From: Candidatus Heimdallarchaeota archaeon
Lineage (GTDB): Archaea > Asgardarchaeota > Heimdallarchaeia > Heimdallarchaeales > Heimdallarchaeaceae
NCBI GenBank assembly: GCA_023136245.1
Contig: JAGLRO010000021.1
Location: forward strand, 1-37,556
DNA length: 37,556 bases
Direction of reading: 5' to 3'
Shown here piece after piece: positions 1,122 to 36,740 of the stretch. Positions within the stretch are counted from its first letter, which is position 1; every line of letters starts with the position of its first letter. The notes under the pieces were generated by a model. It was not told where the DNA came from. It saw nothing but the letters and a program-made list of their open reading frames with translations, and ran no database searches. Position numbers and translations under genes: made by a program.

Positions 1122-1127
1122 TTAAAT
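1122..1127 (+). promoter_or_regulatory. Putative TATA element of proS (TTAAAT), 20 nt before GAGGACA
   Basis: AT-rich TTTTTAAATG; same 20-nt spacing to GAGGACA as at thrS. Confidence 0.5.
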
Positions 1128-1147: not shown

Positions 1148-1257
1148 GAGGACAATGATAGGTGAATTTGTTCCGAAGAAACCGACGGATACTCACAAAT
1201 ATCTCAAGTGGGAACCTTTTTAGTGTAAATAAGGAACAAAACTCTCAAGATGTCTTC
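1148..1257 (+). promoter_or_regulatory. Candidate structured aaRS leader element of proS
   Basis: GAGGACAATGATAGGTGAATTTGTTC near-identical to the thrS leader; GAGGACA (1148-1154) can pair with TGTCTTC (1251-1257, one G-U); inner TTTGTTCC (1167-1174)/GGAACAAA (1233-1240) 8-bp complement. Confidence 0.6.
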
Positions 1258-1294: not shown

Positions 1295-2728
1295 ATGTCA
1301 ATTTTCACTAAGAAAAAAGAAAATTTCATGGCTTGGTATTTAGATGTTGTGCGTCGAGCACAGATAGTAGACACTCGAACTGAAGTAAAGGGTATGAATG
1401 TTTTACTTGCTAATGGGTATGAAATCTGGGATCGAATGAAGAAAATGTTGGATGAAAAATTCTATGTAACTGACCATAAGAATATGTATTTTCCTCTGTT
1501 TATTCCTGATAAGTTTCTTGAATTAGAAAGTGAGCATTTTGAGGGTTTTGTACCAGAAGTAGCATATGTAACACATGCTGGTAAAAAGAAGCTTGAGAAT
1601 AAATTTGCTCTGAGACCAACATCAGAGACAATAATGTACCATATGTATTCTCAATGGATAAGAGCACATACAGATATGCCACTCAAGGTAAACCAATGGT
1701 GCAATATCATCAGGATAGATACGAAAGATACAAAACCTCTACTCCGTGATAGAGAGTTTCAGTGGACTGAAGCTCATACATGTCATGTTACTCCAGAAGA
1801 AGCTGTTGAACAGGTTAAGGAGTCAATGTGGATCTATGGATCTTTTTTTGATGAATGTTGCCTACCTTATCTAATTACTAAAAGACCAAAATATGATACT
1901 TTTCCTGGTGCGTTGTATTCAGTTGCATATGACACTCCATTACCTGATGGGAAAACACTTCAAATAGGTACAACTCATAATCTTGACCAAGGATTTGCAA
2001 AAGTTTTCAACATTCGTTTTCAGAAAGAAGATGGTAGCCACGATTATGCGTACCAAACATGTTATGGACTGTCAACAAGAGTCATTGCTGCAGTTATTAG
2101 TGTGCATGGAGATAATCGAGGGTTAATAATTCCTCCTTATCTTGCACCTTTACAAGTGATTATTGTTCCAATTCTGTTTAAAGGTAAGGAAGAAGGAATA
2201 AACAAAGAATGTGAAGAAGTTCTAAAGGAAATAAAGAAATCTGACATCAGAGTAGAGTATGATTCAAGTAATAAAACATCAGGATTTAAATTCAATGAGT
2301 ATGAACTGCTTGGAGTTCCAATTCGAATAGAAATTGGACCTAAAGATGTTGAAAAAGGTGGAGTTACTCTTGCCAGACGTGATACAAAAGAAAGGATTTT
2401 TGTTGAAAAAAGTAAAATTGTGAAAGCAATTAAAGAAGCATTTGACATAATTACTGAGGAGTTGAAAAATAGATCGAAAACATTATTGGAAAAATCAATA
2501 ACTGAGGTTGTAGCTTACGATGAATTGGAATCCACATTTACAGACAGAAATCCAGGTTTTGTAAAGACTAATTGGTGTGGTGATGAGGAATGTGCAGATT
2601 TAATCAAAGAGAAGCTTCGCGCTGAGATACGTGGTACTCTTTATGGAGAGGAAGAGGAGCCTTTTGGTCCCTGTATAATTTGCAATGAAGAAGCTAAAGA
2701 AGTTGTATATATCTCTAGATCATATTAA
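1295..2728 (+). CDS. proS: Prolyl-tRNA synthetase (archaeal/eukaryotic-type class II)
   Basis: Class II motifs (LRPTSETIMYHMYSQWIRAHTDMPLKVNQWCNIIR, REFQWTEAHTCH, GTTHNLDQGFAKVF); SD GGTGATT 6 nt upstream of ATG 1295. Confidence 0.97.
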   Translation: MSIFTKKKENFMAWYLDVVRRAQIVDTRTEVKGMNVLLANGYEIWDRMKKMLDEKFYVTDHKNMYFPLFIPDKFLELESEHFEGFVPEVAYVTHAGKKKLENKFALRPTSETIMYHMYSQWIRAHTDMPLKVNQWCNIIRIDTKDTKPLLRDREFQWTEAHTCHVTPEEAVEQVKESMWIYGSFFDECCLPYLITKRPKYDTFPGALYSVAYDTPLPDGKTLQIGTTHNLDQGFAKVFNIRFQKEDGSHDYAYQTCYGLSTRVIAAVISVHGDNRGLIIPPYLAPLQVIIVPILFKGKEEGINKECEEVLKEIKKSDIRVEYDSSNKTSGFKFNEYELLGVPIRIEIGPKDVEKGGVTLARRDTKERIFVEKSKIVKAIKEAFDIITEELKNRSKTLLEKSITEVVAYDELESTFTDRNPGFVKTNWCGDEECADLIKEKLRAEIRGTLYGEEEEPFGPCIICNEEAKEVVYISRSY

Positions 2729-30518: not shown

Positions 30519-30524
30519 TTAAAT
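30519..30524 (+). promoter_or_regulatory. Putative TATA element of thrS (TTAAAT), 20 nt before GAGGACA
   Basis: TTTTTTAAATATATG; exact same spacing as in proS. Confidence 0.55.
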
Positions 30525-30544
30525 ATATGTTGAATAAATTCTTT

Positions 30545-30625
30545 GAGGACAGATGTTAGGTGAATATGAAACAATTTCCTGACGTTTTTTTAGTATCCCT
30601 ACATGAGAGTAGGTGCGCTGTCCTT
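30545..30625 (+). promoter_or_regulatory. Candidate structured aaRS leader element of thrS
   Basis: GAGGACAGATGTTAGGTGAATATG; P1 AGGACAG (30546-30552)/CTGTCCT (30618-30624); P2 ATGTTAGG (30553-30560)/CCTGACGT (30578-30585, two G-U); P3 CCTAC (30598-30602)/GTAGG (30609-30613). Confidence 0.65.
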
Positions 30626-30654
30626 TTGAGTAAATTAAATTTAAGGGTGATTTT

Positions 30655-32574
30655 ATGGTCAAAATAGTATTACCGGATGAGAATATTCTTGAAATTCCTA
30701 AAGACAGCACCGTTAGAGATGTAGCAAAGCTGATTAGTGAAAGGTTAGCTGAAGCAGCATTAGCAGCAAAAGTGAATGGAGAACTAGTAGACCTTTTTTA
30801 CGAATTAGATGAGGACGCGAAATTGGAAATTTTAACTGAAAAATCAGAGGAAGTTCTACATGTATTGAATCATAGCGGAGCACATATCATGGCAGGAGCT
30901 GTAGTAGATCTATTTCCAGATGCAAAACCAACCATCGGACCAAGTATAGATCCTGTAGGATTTTATTATGACTTCTATATTGAAAAACCGTTTACTCAAG
31001 AGGATCTAGAGAAAATTCAAAAGAGAGTAGAGGAAGCTATTGCAGAAAATACTGCTTTTGTGAGAGAAGAAGTACCTATAGACAAAGCTATCAAATATTA
31101 TGAAAAAGAAGAAGAAAATAAATTCAAAGTTGAAATACTCAAGGAAACAAATGTAGATACTGTTTCTTTCTATTCTCATGGTAATGGAAGCTTTAAAGAT
31201 CTATGTCGAGGACCACATATTCCGTCAACAGCAAGAATTAAGGCAATCAAAATACTGAATGTTTCTTCAGCATTTTGGCGAGGAGATGCAAATCGGGAAT
31301 ACTTACAAAGAGTCTATGGAGTAGCATTTCTGTCAAAGAAGGATTTGAGAAAACACCTACTTATGCTAGAAGAAGCTAAGAAGCGAGATCATAGAAAGCT
31401 AGGTCGGCAATTAGACCTTTTTGATACAGCAGATGAATGGGGTCCTGGAATGCCTTTAATTTTTCCTAAAGGCGAGACTGTACTTGATGTTATGAGAAAA
31501 TTCTGGAGAACAGAACATAAGAAAGCAGGTTATGACTTTATTCAAACACCTCACATATATAAGGAAAATGTTTGGCAGACTAGTGGTCATACAGAATATT
31601 TCTTAGAAAATATGTTTCCTGTTGATTTACGAGGTGAACAATGGTATGTTAAGCCAATGAATTGTCCAGGTCACATGATGATCTATAATCGCAAGTCACA
31701 CTCCTACAGAGAGTTACCAATTCGTTTAGCTGAAATGGGTACTGTTTACAGATACGAATTGTCTGGTGTTTTGCATGGATTATTCCGCATTAGAAGCATT
31801 ACTCAAGATGATGCACATCTTTTCATGCTACCTGATCAATTAGAAGATGAAATTGTTGGTGTCATCAGAATGACAGAGTTATTCTACAAAACTTTTGGAT
31901 TTACTGAATGGGAATATTTCGTTAGTACTAAACCTGAAAAAGCTATCGGAAAAAGTGAAGGTTGGGACCATGCAACTCAAGCTTTAATGAGAGCACTAGA
32001 AAGAGAAAATCTACCATATAAAGTTAAAGAAGGAGAAGGTGCATTCTATGGTCCAAAGATAGATGTAGATCTTAAAGATGCCTTAGGACGAAAGTGGCAA
32101 CTAGCTACTATTCAAGTAGATTTCAATTTACCTGATCGTTTTGACATAACTTACATTGGAGAGGATGGACAGAAACACCGTCCTTTTGTTATTCACAGAA
32201 CGATTTACGGAGCTACAGAGAGATTTCTAGCTATTTTAGTTGAACATTATGCAGGAAAATTCCCAATATGGCTAAGCCCAATTCAAGCAGTTGTTATACC
32301 AATAACAGATAACCACATTGAATATGCCAATGAGATTGTCAAGATTTTACAAGAAGTAGGAATACGAGTAGAAGCAGATCTTAGTGGGGATAGGATGGAA
32401 TACAAAATAAGACATGCTACTATGCAGAAAGTACCTTACATAATCAATGTTGGTGAGAAGGAAATTGAAACACAAACAATTGCTGTAAGATCTAGAGGTA
32501 ACAAAGTAGAATATGGTGTTCTAGTTAATGATTTCATAACTATAGTACTGGAACAAATACAAAATTATGAGTAA
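30655..32574 (+). CDS. thrS: Threonyl-tRNA synthetase, bacterial/eukaryotic-type with TGS and N2 editing domains
   Basis: TGS-like start, HSGAHIMAGAVVDLFP, FKDLCRGPHIPSTARI, class II core MNCPGHMMIYN, RIRSITQDDAHLF, PIQAVVIPITDNH anticodon-binding domain. SD GGGTGA. Confidence 0.96.
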   Translation: MVKIVLPDENILEIPKDSTVRDVAKLISERLAEAALAAKVNGELVDLFYELDEDAKLEILTEKSEEVLHVLNHSGAHIMAGAVVDLFPDAKPTIGPSIDPVGFYYDFYIEKPFTQEDLEKIQKRVEEAIAENTAFVREEVPIDKAIKYYEKEEENKFKVEILKETNVDTVSFYSHGNGSFKDLCRGPHIPSTARIKAIKILNVSSAFWRGDANREYLQRVYGVAFLSKKDLRKHLLMLEEAKKRDHRKLGRQLDLFDTADEWGPGMPLIFPKGETVLDVMRKFWRTEHKKAGYDFIQTPHIYKENVWQTSGHTEYFLENMFPVDLRGEQWYVKPMNCPGHMMIYNRKSHSYRELPIRLAEMGTVYRYELSGVLHGLFRIRSITQDDAHLFMLPDQLEDEIVGVIRMTELFYKTFGFTEWEYFVSTKPEKAIGKSEGWDHATQALMRALERENLPYKVKEGEGAFYGPKIDVDLKDALGRKWQLATIQVDFNLPDRFDITYIGEDGQKHRPFVIHRTIYGATERFLAILVEHYAGKFPIWLSPIQAVVIPITDNHIEYANEIVKILQEVGIRVEADLSGDRMEYKIRHATMQKVPYIINVGEKEIETQTIAVRSRGNKVEYGVLVNDFITIVLEQIQNYE

Positions 32575-32590
32575 TTCATTACTCATTTTT
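32568..32590 (+). terminator. Hairpin plus T-tract at the thrS 3' end
   Basis: TGAGTAA-TTCA-TTACTCA followed by TTTTT; includes the thrS stop codon. Confidence 0.45.
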
Positions 32591-32627
32591 CTATTCAAAA
32601 CAAAGAATAAGAAAATGGATACTAGGT

Positions 32628-33311
32628 TTATTCTCCATTTTGCATTTTTTCATATTCTTCTTCGATGTGGGTAATTTTAATGCCCAAGCTATCCATTAGT
32701 TGGAAACACCAACCTAGCCAAACATTAACAAAACCCATAGCACCAGCATCAACAACACCTGCTTCTTTCAAACAAGGAAGAAGATTAGGAGTATTTTCAA
32801 GTGAAACTACTGCAGTGGAATATGTTTCTGTTATCATTTCATTCCAATTTCCACCTTTTTCTGCTATTTTTTTAGCTATTGCAGCAGTATCTTTTATTAC
32901 TGTAAGAATTGTTCCTTCAGTCGGGTGAAGAACAGCTTCATATGACCATTCACATCCAGCTTCCAATGCTTTAGCAAATATATCAATTCCGACTTCTTCA
33001 TGATTTTCTATCTCAGAACTGAAACCTTGAAAGAATTGAGAAATTATTACACCTGAATTTCCTTTAGCTCCAAGAAAACTCCCTTTAGTTATTAATTGTG
33101 CTGCTTCATTTATAGAAGAAGGATCAATTTCATCAAACTGCTCTACTACAGTTCTCATTGTTAAAAACAGATTAACACCAGTATCTCCATCAGGAATTGG
33201 AAAAACATTAATTGCATTGAGTTCTTCTTTTGTTTGTTCCAAATTACTAGCTGCGCTAATCATCATTTTTTTCAAAGTAATTCCGTTAATTTTGGAATCT
33301 TGTACCGTCAT
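32628..33311 (-). CDS. Stand-alone DAK2 (DhaL/FakA N-terminal-like) domain protein
   Basis: LNAINVFPIPDGDTGVNLFLTMRTVVEQ, GSFLGAKGNSGVIISQFFQGF, EAGVVDAGAMGFVNV. Start MTVQDSK at 33311 preferred over 33518. Confidence 0.9.
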   Translation of the reverse strand: MTVQDSKINGITLKKMMISAASNLEQTKEELNAINVFPIPDGDTGVNLFLTMRTVVEQFDEIDPSSINEAAQLITKGSFLGAKGNSGVIISQFFQGFSSEIENHEEVGIDIFAKALEAGCEWSYEAVLHPTEGTILTVIKDTAAIAKKIAEKGGNWNEMITETYSTAVVSLENTPNLLPCLKEAGVVDAGAMGFVNVWLGWCFQLMDSLGIKITHIEEEYEKMQNGE

Positions 33312-33588
33312 TTTCGAGCCCCGCGTTATGTATAAGCGTTTTACTATGTTGGATAGTTTATTTTTCGCAAAGCAGTATATAATACTTCCTTGCTTATATG
33401 AACATAGAATATTATATCCTGTAATTGCATTTATGCTAAGTTGAATTTCCTCGGAAAATGAATTTAAAAGATTATGCATTGTGCTTATTATATCGCCATA
33501 AAACATTAGTATTTTCAAGAAAGAGAGGAAATTGGAATTTTTTCATTTTCTAATTATCCGTATTTTTTCAGTATTATTATTCCAATTT

Positions 33589-36522
33589 TTACTCTAGAAG
33601 TAAGGCAGGTTTCATTGGTCTAGCTTTTTGTGCTTTGTTTTGAGGATCGTAAATATCTTTCTCATCCGCTAAATGGATCAGTACTTCAGCTTTATCAAAT
33701 GTCCTAATAATGAATTCTTTGTATCCCATTATAGCTTCTTCCTGTTCTTTGGAACTCAGCATTTCTATTCGAAATATTGTAGGATCTTTCATCATTAATT
33801 TCGCTTCATTTGCAATATCTTTCATATACTTGCTCAATTTGCTATTTTCTTTTACCGCATTCATCATTTTACTAATTTTAAATGCCTCATCCTCGAAAAT
33901 CTCTTGTGCAATTTTGTACAGTTCATTTTTCCATTCTGCATTTATATAGATATGAATCTTCTTTGGCTTGGTTTTGACTAGTTTCACAATTTGCTCAATG
34001 TCTTCTATCAAATTAGCCATGAATTTTGCTTCCAAAGCATACAGTTCATCTTGATATGAAATTACAATGTCAGGTATTTGCTTCAAAGAATTGTATTCTT
34101 TGTCGCCCATTCTTTCATTCAGTTCTTCACAAATATGTGGAATAACTGGAGACATAGTTGCGATTATCTTCTCTATTATCTCTCTCAGTATTGTATTTCT
34201 TTCTTTTTCTGGTAAGTGCTGTGCGATTTTCTGATATTCATCAATAGCCCTAACATTTGAATAAAAACCATCTAAAACGAAATCTCTTGCATTGAAGTTC
34301 TCTATTCTTTCTATTGCTTTCTTCAAATTGGTTTTGACTGAAGATATTAAAACCTTTGATGGAAAGGAAAAATCTTCTTCACTTATTTTAGATATTTTAG
34401 TAACACTTGTTGCATATTCCCAGAATTTCCTCAACCTTTGTTTAGCAAAATTCACTTCGTCTTCTCTCCAGTCTAGAACTGTGTCTACTGTAGCAACTGA
34501 TGCTAAATGAAGTCTTGTCAAATCAACACTATATTTCCTTGGTATATGCCCCATAGCAATAACATTACCTTTGCTTTTACCCATCTTCTGACCAAATCGA
34601 TTTAGCATTTCACTAATAGAGATGGTTTGCATCCAATATTTCTCAGGGAAGATTGCTACATGATGATATATAGCAAAGGATAAATGATTGGATAAATGAC
34701 CAATCGCTGTGTGTCGAAAATCATTTGGATACCAGTATTCAAATGAATCCTTCATCTCCATTAGCAGATCTTTTGAAATACCAGTTAATTCTATTATTTC
34801 CTCAACTTTTCCTTTATCACGGAATATGAAATCAAATAATTCCGGTTTCAGTTGTTCAGGTTTGATGTTGTTTTGTCTAATTGTTCTAACTATTGTGTAA
34901 TATGACATATAAATTACAGAATCACTTAGAGATTCTATTATCCAACCTTCACCTTTAGTTAAAGGAAATTCAGTTCCTAATCCTCGTTTTCTTACACAAG
35001 GTCTTTTGTCTAGCCAATGAAATGTGTTTTCAAATGCTTGTCTGTATTTTTCTGGAATTATTTCCATATTTTTCAAAGCATAAAATGCTTGCTCTTTCCA
35101 TTCAGAATCTCCATAATTCAAGAAGTATTGATCTTGTAGAACAGCTACAATTACTTGACCACCACATCTACAGAATGATCTCTCGGAAGCTTCATAGATT
35201 GTTGTTGCTAAATTAACCTTTTCTAACTTTTCAGCAACTGCATCTTTTGCTTGTTCTACTTTTAATCCTTTGAAATCTCCAGTGTTATCTTTCATTATTC
35301 CTGAATAGAATTCATCTTTATAGATAGTCTGAGTAGCTTTTTCCAATTCTTCTCGATCTTTCTGACTCTGAACGCCAAGTTTTTCACACAATTCCACAGC
35401 AGGAAATTCACCATACCCCTTAACTTCTATCAGAGATATGGGTATAATCTTCGATAAACTATCTCTAACTAAATTGTAATTTTCAATAGTTTCGTCATCA
35501 TTTTGTAAATCAACCAATGCTGCATAATCATAAGGAGCATGAGCGGGAACACTGTAAACAACACCAGTTGCATGATCTGTATCTACAAACATAGCAGGAT
35601 AAATTGGGATTTTCCAATTTGTAATTGGTACAGTAACTTCTTCATTTACTAGCTCTTTACCCTTTAATTCTCTAATTATCTCAATGGTATGCTCTTGTTC
35701 AGATAATTTCATAGTAGCTTCTTCAGAAACAATCCATTTTTCTCCATCAATCATGATTTCATTGTATATTGCTTCTGGGTGAATCCAGACATTTGTAGCT
35801 CCGAAAATTGTCTCGGGTCTTAAGGTTGCAGCTACTAAAGCGGTTCCACTGTTTAGCTTAAATTTGATACCTACGAATTCACTAACTTCAACTTTAAGCA
35901 AATCTCCGTCTTGGATATCATCCTCACCAACAGCATTTTTATCATTTACACACCAAAGAATCGGATAGCTACCCTTTGTAATGTAATTTTTCTCATTTAG
36001 TATTCCATATTGCCATTCAATGAATTTGTTGTAATCAGGATCTCCTGTTGTAAATTGCCTTGTATCATCTATTGAAAATCCTAGGTTTAGGAAATCTTGC
36101 AAGATTGTACTCGAAAAGAAATTAGCAACGTTTTGTGGTTCTACAAATGTTCCTACTATTTCATCTATTTTTTTAGGGTCATCTTCATAAATGCCTACGT
36201 AGTCTCGATAAGTTTCCCATGCTTTTTCCTCGTTATTTTTTATTGTCCATGATACTGAAAGAACAGGGGTTCCAGTTATATGCCAAGCCATAGGATAAAA
36301 CACATTGTATCCTCTTTGTCTTTTGAATCTAGCATAAATATCTCCCAAATTGTAAGTTCTAGCGTGACCTAAATGGAAGGCTCCAGAAGCATATGGATAT
36401 GGTACTGTTATGAACCATTTTGGTCTTGAATGATCTATTTTTCCTACAAAAATCTGATCTTCTTGCCATTTCTTTTGCCATTTCTTTTCGAACTCACGTA
36501 TCACTTCGAGAAAAATCGTCAT
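33589..36522 (-). CDS. leuS: Leucyl-tRNA synthetase (archaeal/eukaryotic type)
   Basis: TVPYPYASGAFHLGHARTYNLGDIYARFKRQRGYNVFYPMAWHITGTP (HLGH), CVRKRGLGTEFPLTKGEGWIIESLSDS, KMGKSKGNV (KMSKS variant). Start ATG 36522 preceded by SD AAGGTGATT. Confidence 0.96.
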   Translation of the reverse strand: MTIFLEVIREFEKKWQKKWQEDQIFVGKIDHSRPKWFITVPYPYASGAFHLGHARTYNLGDIYARFKRQRGYNVFYPMAWHITGTPVLSVSWTIKNNEEKAWETYRDYVGIYEDDPKKIDEIVGTFVEPQNVANFFSSTILQDFLNLGFSIDDTRQFTTGDPDYNKFIEWQYGILNEKNYITKGSYPILWCVNDKNAVGEDDIQDGDLLKVEVSEFVGIKFKLNSGTALVAATLRPETIFGATNVWIHPEAIYNEIMIDGEKWIVSEEATMKLSEQEHTIEIIRELKGKELVNEEVTVPITNWKIPIYPAMFVDTDHATGVVYSVPAHAPYDYAALVDLQNDDETIENYNLVRDSLSKIIPISLIEVKGYGEFPAVELCEKLGVQSQKDREELEKATQTIYKDEFYSGIMKDNTGDFKGLKVEQAKDAVAEKLEKVNLATTIYEASERSFCRCGGQVIVAVLQDQYFLNYGDSEWKEQAFYALKNMEIIPEKYRQAFENTFHWLDKRPCVRKRGLGTEFPLTKGEGWIIESLSDSVIYMSYYTIVRTIRQNNIKPEQLKPELFDFIFRDKGKVEEIIELTGISKDLLMEMKDSFEYWYPNDFRHTAIGHLSNHLSFAIYHHVAIFPEKYWMQTISISEMLNRFGQKMGKSKGNVIAMGHIPRKYSVDLTRLHLASVATVDTVLDWREDEVNFAKQRLRKFWEYATSVTKISKISEEDFSFPSKVLISSVKTNLKKAIERIENFNARDFVLDGFYSNVRAIDEYQKIAQHLPEKERNTILREIIEKIIATMSPVIPHICEELNERMGDKEYNSLKQIPDIVISYQDELYALEAKFMANLIEDIEQIVKLVKTKPKKIHIYINAEWKNELYKIAQEIFEDEAFKISKMMNAVKENSKLSKYMKDIANEAKLMMKDPTIFRIEMLSSKEQEEAIMGYKEFIIRTFDKAEVLIHLADEKDIYDPQNKAQKARPMKPALLLE

Positions 36523-36657
36523 AATAATCACCTTGTTTCTCTTTTTGTCTATAGTTCACTGATGATTCCAAACTACTCTTGGAATTGTAAAACCAAAACA
36601 CCAAGTTAGAAGCTTTTCTTCCGATCGTTAGAATAGATTTTACTATGAATAAAATCT

Positions 36658-36740
36658 GGAAACTACTAAATTTCAAAGGTAGAGTTTCAAATGGGAAGAA
36701 CACATTCACCAGTCATTATATTATTCTCCGTGTAGTTTCC
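36658..36740 (-). promoter_or_regulatory. Candidate structured aaRS leader element of leuS
   Basis: On the minus strand GGAAACTAC (36740-36732) perfectly complements GTAGTTTCC (36666-36658), enclosing ATGACTGGTGAATGTGTTC (36716-36698); TATA-like TTTAAAAAC about 30 nt upstream. Confidence 0.55.

Follow-up and report, generated by a model that had tools for sequence, protein, structure and literature searches.

Short upstream reading frames with a cognate codon are candidate tRNA-charging sensors in the leaders of Asgard archaeal leuS, ileS, proS, and thrS

The window, a 37,556-nt stretch of contig JAGLRO010000021.1 from a Candidatus Heimdallarchaeota archaeon, carries the aminoacyl-tRNA synthetase genes proS and thrS on the plus strand and leuS on the minus strand, each preceded by a short upstream open reading frame (uORF) and by segments that could pair in the leader RNA. 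The features are as follows; here and below, peptides written without dots end at a stop codon, and dots mark peptides quoted in part.

1122–1127, plus strand: TATA-like box of the proS promoter, from sequence
1148–1154, plus strand: 5′ arm of proS stem P1, GAGGACA, also SD-like, pairs with 1251–1257
1155–1223, plus strand: proS uORF, MIGEFVPKKPTDTHKYLKWEPF (MIGEFV-P-KK...), V-P kept in relatives
1167–1174, plus strand: 5′ arm of proS stem P2, TTTGTTCC, uORF codons 5–7, pairs with 1233–1240
1173–1175, plus strand: Pro codon CCG at position 7 of the proS uORF, cognate to the enzyme
1233–1240, plus strand: 3′ arm of proS stem P2, GGAACAAA, pairing with TTTGTTCC
1251–1257, plus strand: 3′ arm of proS stem P1, TGTCTTC, pairing with GAGGACA
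1295–2728, plus strand: proS (prolyl-tRNA synthetase)
30519–30524, plus strand: thrS promoter element, TATA-like TTAAAT inside TTTTTTAAATATAT, from sequence; relatives have this box at an equal distance
30545–30552, plus strand: 5′ arm of thrS stem P1, GAGGACAG, including the SD-like GAGG of the thrS uORF, pairs with 30618–30625
30553–30582, plus strand: thrS uORF, MLGEYETIS; MxGExET in 18/18 family thrS leaders
30571–30573, plus strand: Thr codon ACA at position 7 of the thrS uORF, cognate to the enzyme; ACA in 18/18
30585–30591, plus strand: U7 tract of thrS, beginning 14 nt downstream from where the Thr codon starts
30618–30625, plus strand: 3′ arm of thrS stem P1, CTGTCCTT, pairing with 30545–30552
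30655–32574, plus strand: thrS (threonyl-tRNA synthetase), the putatively regulated gene
33589–36531, minus strand: leuS (leucyl-tRNA synthetase)
36658–36666, minus strand: 3′ arm of leuS stem P1, GTAGTTTCC, followed by a U-rich stretch
36687–36716, minus strand: leuS uORF, MTGECVLPI, identical in genome G021
36696–36698, minus strand: Leu codon CTT at position 7 of the leuS uORF, cognate to the enzyme
36732–36740, minus strand: 5′ arm of leuS stem P1, GGAAACTAC, pairs with 36658–36666

The genes thrS and leuS are close neighbors in opposite orientation, both in the window (30655–36531) and in nearly all of the genus relatives examined (L108–L122). The comparison covered the 2.27-Mb Heimdallarchaeota genome of the window and other Asgard genomes, with families given f-numbers and genomes G-numbers; the names Thor (f9) and Loki (f8) rest on records L156 and L221 and their close relatives, and the named relatives of the window's genome include AB_125, HM4_B41, 8H_bin2, and YT1_002.

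A preliminary description of this DNA had proposed that the three leaders share one sequence element acting as a common regulator of synthetase expression, with a tRNA-charging sensor, an RNA–protein switch, and uORF control as the options. The thrS, proS, and leuS leader sequences quoted there match the DNA as re-read in the window, and the TTAAAT boxes at 30519–30524 (thrS) and 1122–1127 (proS) end exactly 20 nt ahead of GAGGAC, as described. The motif was said to lie upstream of no other gene, and exact matches to ATGNNNGGTGAATNTG across the 2.27-Mb genome were indeed confined to the regions upstream of thrS, proS, and leuS (three in the window vs. 0.27 expected); the reversed motif, used as a control in the same genome, gave no exact match and, with one mismatch allowed, one match vs. 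13 for ATGNNNGGTGAATNTG. Most same-genus genomes also have the exact motif ahead of thrS, and some have it ahead of proS; the further exact matches examined there lay inside unrelated coding sequences. The Rfam scan of the leaders gave nothing at the gathering threshold and no T-box match.

The idea of a single shared RNA motif was rejected, however, because the ileS leader (outside the window) and most leuS leaders are without it: the ileS uORF lacks GGTGAAT, and most leuS genes of the genus have a different uORF, MGYRVLLN, without ATGNNNGGTGAATNTG. Each synthetase instead has its own uORF, with E-T for Thr, V-P for Pro, V-L for Leu, and E/Q-I for Ile, and the letters common to the three leaders are partly the coding sequence M-x-G-E of the uORF. 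ATGNNNGGTGAATNTG is best read as the presumptive start of short uORFs rather than as a bare RNA motif, and what is strongly supported of the proposed common regulator is the uORF option combined with the sensing of tRNA charging, not one common motif. The decisive feature, missed in the preliminary description, is that the cognate codon is codon 7 of each window uORF. A second frame starting from GGTGAAT-NTG and open across the thrS start was also considered, and was rejected because NTG is replaced by GCG or GGG in two relatives (L074 and L075); reading the GGTGA core as an SD for this second thrS frame was dropped as well, the NTG being unconserved and the conserved cognate codon lying in the upstream frame.

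Codon 7 specifies the amino acid of the downstream enzyme in 3/3 window uORFs (Thr ACA, Pro CCG, Leu CTT), a match that was made post hoc on three sequences and was therefore treated as a hypothesis and tested on relatives. The pattern predicted from Heimdall family f1 held in other Asgard families for leuS, ileS, and proS. When scored with uORF motifs that were defined from Heimdall sequences already inspected, and across sequences that are not independent inside one family, the own-gene motif was found at 64 of 70 leu, 33 of 42 ile, 17 of 31 pro, and 18 of 18 thr upstream regions, vs. shuffled means of 33.7, 7.9, 5.3, and 0.3, respectively; the motifs of the other three synthetases occurred in each upstream region at the shuffled level only. 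Chance automated uORF picks (e.g., f22, f18, f12, f8 ileS) were excluded from the reported counts. A less biased check was provided by searching 10 Thor genomes for uORF starts without the cognate codon: GGATGGATTGYS gave uORF-type matches only at leuS (MDCVL) and ileS (MDCQI), and ATGYTAGGTGAR only at proS (MLGE-VP), and the remaining matches examined had no conserved counterpart and lay mostly within or across other genes.

Several conserved features favor a translated frame over a bare RNA motif. The start is ATG, sometimes GTG or TTG, with GAGG or GGTGA ahead of it at an SD-like distance; the distance from start to cognate codon, which mostly occupies position 5 to 8, changes by whole codons only, and a stop in the same frame usually follows 0–5 codons later. 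Cognate codons vary synonymously (CCG/CCA; CTT/CTA/CTC), and the codon preceding them is constrained, being NTT before CTN/CCN and NAA (or TTT) before ATY/ACA. Extended codon–anticodon pairing involving tRNA positions 37/38 was considered for this constrained codon and dropped, as it fits Leu and Pro but fails for Ile. TATA-like boxes lie ∼20–25 nt upstream of the GAGG element, so that the uORF should be near the 5′ end of the transcript. In the thrS, proS, and leuS leaders, stems can be drawn that pair the uORF SD, start, or first codons with downstream RNA; no mutually exclusive terminator/antiterminator pair as in bacterial attenuators was identified among them.

At thrS, M-x-G-E-x-E-T with the codon ACA is kept in all 18 distinct leaders, which belong to the same family, and two of them accommodate a one-codon insertion with the frame kept (MNPGEYETIQ and MKIGECETNQ). 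The P1 pairing is likewise kept in relatives, as GAGGACA/TGTCCTC and also GAGGATA/TATCCTC. A cognate uORF was found at none of 15 ThrRS genes outside family f1. A sub-threshold match to SNORD2, a C/D-box snoRNA-like family, at window positions 30520–30588 in a relaxed Rfam scan (19.6 bits, E 0.17) is probably due to chance.

The proS uORFs of the same family, which precede the 478-aa type of the enzyme, keep V-P (MIGEFVPK, MKGEFVPKI, MKGDYVPTNTCN, and MSIGEFVPNLQ), and both stems recur in relatives, P1 as GAGGATA/TATCTTC and GAGGACT/AGTCTTT and P2 as GGGACAAA, GGAACAAC, and ATGTTCC/GGAATAT. Beyond f1, uORFs with V/L/F-P were found in f3, f4, and f9, including MGEYVPLN, MNPGDCLPIQ, (GTG)IGDCLPEGN, and MSFGEYFPK in other Asgard families and, in Thor, MLGECVP.. 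(including MLGECVPHYQ), MLGEYVPHE, MLGENVPNP, and MLGERVPH; the f4 leader has a stem GACTGCC/GGCAGTC. The proS uORF is absent in most families. Several members of the genus (L128–L132) have a divergent 503-aa ProRS replacing the 478-aa one and lack the leader uORF, a uORF with cognate codon being found at the divergent gene in 0/5 genomes.

A cognate uORF precedes leuS in about eleven families in all. Within the genus, MGYRVLLN and its variants, with two Leu, predominate, MKGDYVLLGKQLFY occurs in G022, and no leuS uORF was found in G001. Other members of the same order have MCSVLLNRL, MITGYYVLQKQ, MRNYVLFNI, (GTG)RDSVLRAQRI, MRNCVLLI, and MGYYVLSYQN. Beyond f1, V-L (or I/F/L-L) was found in f2, f3, f4, f5, f6, f9, f13, f16, f19, and f23, in forms such as MRDSVL..., MRDCVL.., (GTG)RDCILY, MGPCVLTA, MRNYVLPI, MRYCVLLS, MRNSVLLNW, (GTG)RGSIL..., and (GTG)RNCLLC, and Thor has MDCVLxx, MRYCVL, and similar peptides at 30/30 loci; the element is absent in f10, f11, f18, f20, f21, and f22. 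At 15/15 Loki leuS loci, two of them nearly identical, the peptide is 27–31 codons long with 7–10 Leu, 4–7 of them within the last nine residues (e.g., MISNKTALKMNLREKVSLVDLLAVLLLS), and a stem-loop with a U-rich loop begins at the uORF stop codon (mean folding z −2.2). Stem P1 of the window leuS leader recurs in relatives as GTGGTTTCC in L048 and as GGAGACC/GGTCTCC and GGAAACC/GGTTTCC, and f5 has a leader stem ACGTTCTC/GAGAACGT. Across the genus, 96% of cells in P1 were paired and two pairs had changed on both sides; covariation support is suggestive only, because the main observed values were reached by 22–31 of 500 shuffles. Upstream of leuS in L150, the promoter and uORF are missing through an apparent deletion between two copies of ATATCTGTTT, either real or an assembly artefact. 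The Thor leuS leaders (L263–L292) also contain a nearly invariant CTTTATAG in a small hairpin, GTCC/GGAC, ∼30–40 nt past the start of the uORF Leu codon; this sequence may belong to the switch or serve as a second TATA box.

A cognate uORF precedes ileS in about ten families in all. In the genus it is MDREIR or MDREIH, once MDREIRY (16/16, the window's own genome included), and in Thor MDCQI.., MDRQIS, or MDCEI.. (6/6 genomes). The E/Q/K-I type was found beyond f1 in f2, f4, f9, f11, f13, f17, f18, and f19, and other ileS uORFs read MDHQIC, MDRQIRLQ, (GTG)YRRQI, (TTG)TERQI, MRDLQIHR, (GTG)RDCQI.., and MRDYEILLC; two f3 genomes have an F-I type (MCYFI.. and MCCFI..). The ileS element is absent in f5/f6.

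Runs of four or more U were scored 12–33 nt past the cognate codon and compared with shuffled sequences. In most sets, a run starts 14–28 nt past the codon; such runs were present at 17 of 18 thrS leaders (shuffled mean 4.7), 15 of 15 genus ileS leaders (4.6), and 23 of 30 Thor leuS leaders (4.5). Enrichment was weak at genus leuS (6/11 vs. 4.5), and only 1/6 Thor ileS leaders had a run, so that one termination mechanism may not fit all. A ribosome holding the cognate codon in its A site would have its leading edge at about the start of the U-run.

These leaders very probably encode short uORFs that act as sensors of the cognate aminoacyl-tRNA for the downstream synthetase gene. Sequence comparison itself shows the cognate codon, its frame, the specificity for the gene, the spread across lineages, and where the U-runs lie; that the uORFs are translated, which way expression responds, and that control acts on termination and not on translation are what we infer. 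With charged tRNA in good supply, the first ribosome would finish the short frame fast and release at the stop, leaving the leader bare; stems could then form between the uORF SD, start, or first codons and RNA 40–80 nt downstream, and U-rich RNA immediately beyond the uORF would be exposed. Expression would stay low, most likely because the archaeal factor FttA (aCPSF1) terminates transcription prematurely at the U-tract. If charged tRNA ran short, the ribosome would pause once the cognate codon had entered its A site and cover the 5′ arms of the stems, its leading edge standing where the U-run starts, about 15 nt further along; the RNA would thereby be shielded, transcription would proceed, and the synthetase would rise. 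FttA prefers U-rich RNA, and its steric exclusion by a coupled ribosome has been proposed for archaea (PMC11616081), which makes premature FttA termination the first-choice output; termination as the output is modestly favored, at somewhat better than an even chance, over control of translation. Most uORFs hold one cognate codon, with 7–10 Leu in Loki leuS and 2 Leu in genus leuS, and in theory a single cognate codon gives a weaker response than many (PMC1183508).

The same uORF sensor could instead work by translational attenuation, in which the stalled ribosome opens a structure or re-initiates at the synthetase start and transcription is unaffected. The conserved uORF stems would suit this, as would the P1 3′ arms of thrS and proS, which lie about 30–60 nt from the main SD/start, but conserved pairing hiding the synthetase SD was not found, the stem of the window leuS lies >100 nt upstream of the leuS start, and the U-runs are non-randomly placed beside the cognate codon; we regard this outcome as possible but doubtful. 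Chance together with duplication of promoters and leaders between synthetase genes, which would require no sensor, might account for the shared M-x-G-E and related appearance of the thrS, proS, and own leuS leaders. It is scarcely credible against a cognate codon that is the very residue differing by gene, is held across families far above the shuffled expectation, and is reached by several different peptide designs.

Two further readings do away with the sensing of charged tRNA by decoding. In a T-box-like arrangement, uncharged tRNA would bind the leader RNA directly, with the cognate codon as specifier and no ribosome involved. In its favor are the presence of one codon that resembles a specifier and encodes the right amino acid, and the constraint on the codon before it; a T-box, however, needs none of the conserved start codon, SD, frame, nearby stop, and whole-codon length changes seen here, and in Loki the element is a long peptide rich in Leu, which, with the lack of an Rfam T-box match, makes direct binding very unlikely. 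Stalling might also be caused by the V-L, V-P, Q-I, and E-T peptides themselves, or by free amino acid, rather than by a lack of charged tRNA. Conservation of the residue ahead of the cognate residue across families speaks for such nascent-peptide arrest, but peptides of 5–8 residues barely enter the exit tunnel, four sequences would require four arrest mechanisms, and the cognate codon changes from gene to gene in just the way that a charging sensor would need, so that arrest, if marginally less remote than direct tRNA binding, is also improbable.

The proposed charging sensor resembles bacterial ribosome-mediated attenuation (trpL, hisL, leuL, thrL, pheM/pheST) in its short 5′-proximal frame with cognate codon(s), the regulated gene downstream, structures that a stalled ribosome would disrupt, and a U-rich stretch; Loki leuS, with a Leu-rich tail and then a stem-loop, comes closest to the bacterial textbook design. 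Unlike those bacterial attenuators, the Asgard leaders belong to an archaeal host, mostly have one cognate codon in a 6–10-codon frame, target the synthetase genes leuS, ileS, proS, and thrS, place their U-runs in a loop beside the uORF and not after a GC-rich hairpin, and would likely use FttA as terminator. The synthetase targets, the one cognate codon per leader, and the charging logic are shared with the T-box riboswitch, whereas the Asgard codon is surrounded by a conserved frame (in all four genes), SD, and stop and gives no Rfam match. Eukaryotic uORF control by amino-acid supply, e.g., of GCN4, also combines leader uORFs with the logic of amino-acid starvation; in the Asgard leaders, by contrast, the cognate codon in each uORF matches the gene that follows it, and no scanning or eIF2 logic is implied.

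A 2021 paper stated that no attenuation or antitermination was known in archaea (PMC8448881), and no later description of such an archaeal system was found in the open-access literature searched. The chances are about even that these leaders represent the first ribosome-mediated attenuation in Archaea, present at leuS/ileS/proS/thrS in many Asgard lineages, relying mostly on a single codon, and using a stalled ribosome to block FttA at the U-tract. A leader peptide of this kind, with its cognate codon kept throughout many Asgard families, would be a concrete candidate for archaeal attenuation, and its presence in many lineages suggests that it is perhaps ancestral to Asgards. Such a system would imply transcription–translation coupling in the lineage nearest to eukaryotes, would provide a natural test case for the proposed mutual exclusion of ribosome and FttA, and would have synthetase genes sense their own product by decoding.

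The element does not extend to all synthetases. No cognate uORF was found at the SerRS, HisRS, and GlyRS genes of the window's genome or at Thor SerRS (0/4), and no consistent one among five genus valS sequences, the window's genome alone being readable as MKLSV. Upstream of valS in the genus (L104, L139–L142), a palindrome, TTGAGTG-N5/6-CACTCAA, lies directly 5′ of the TATA-like TTTTTAAA and resembles a DNA operator of the kind bound by transcription factors.
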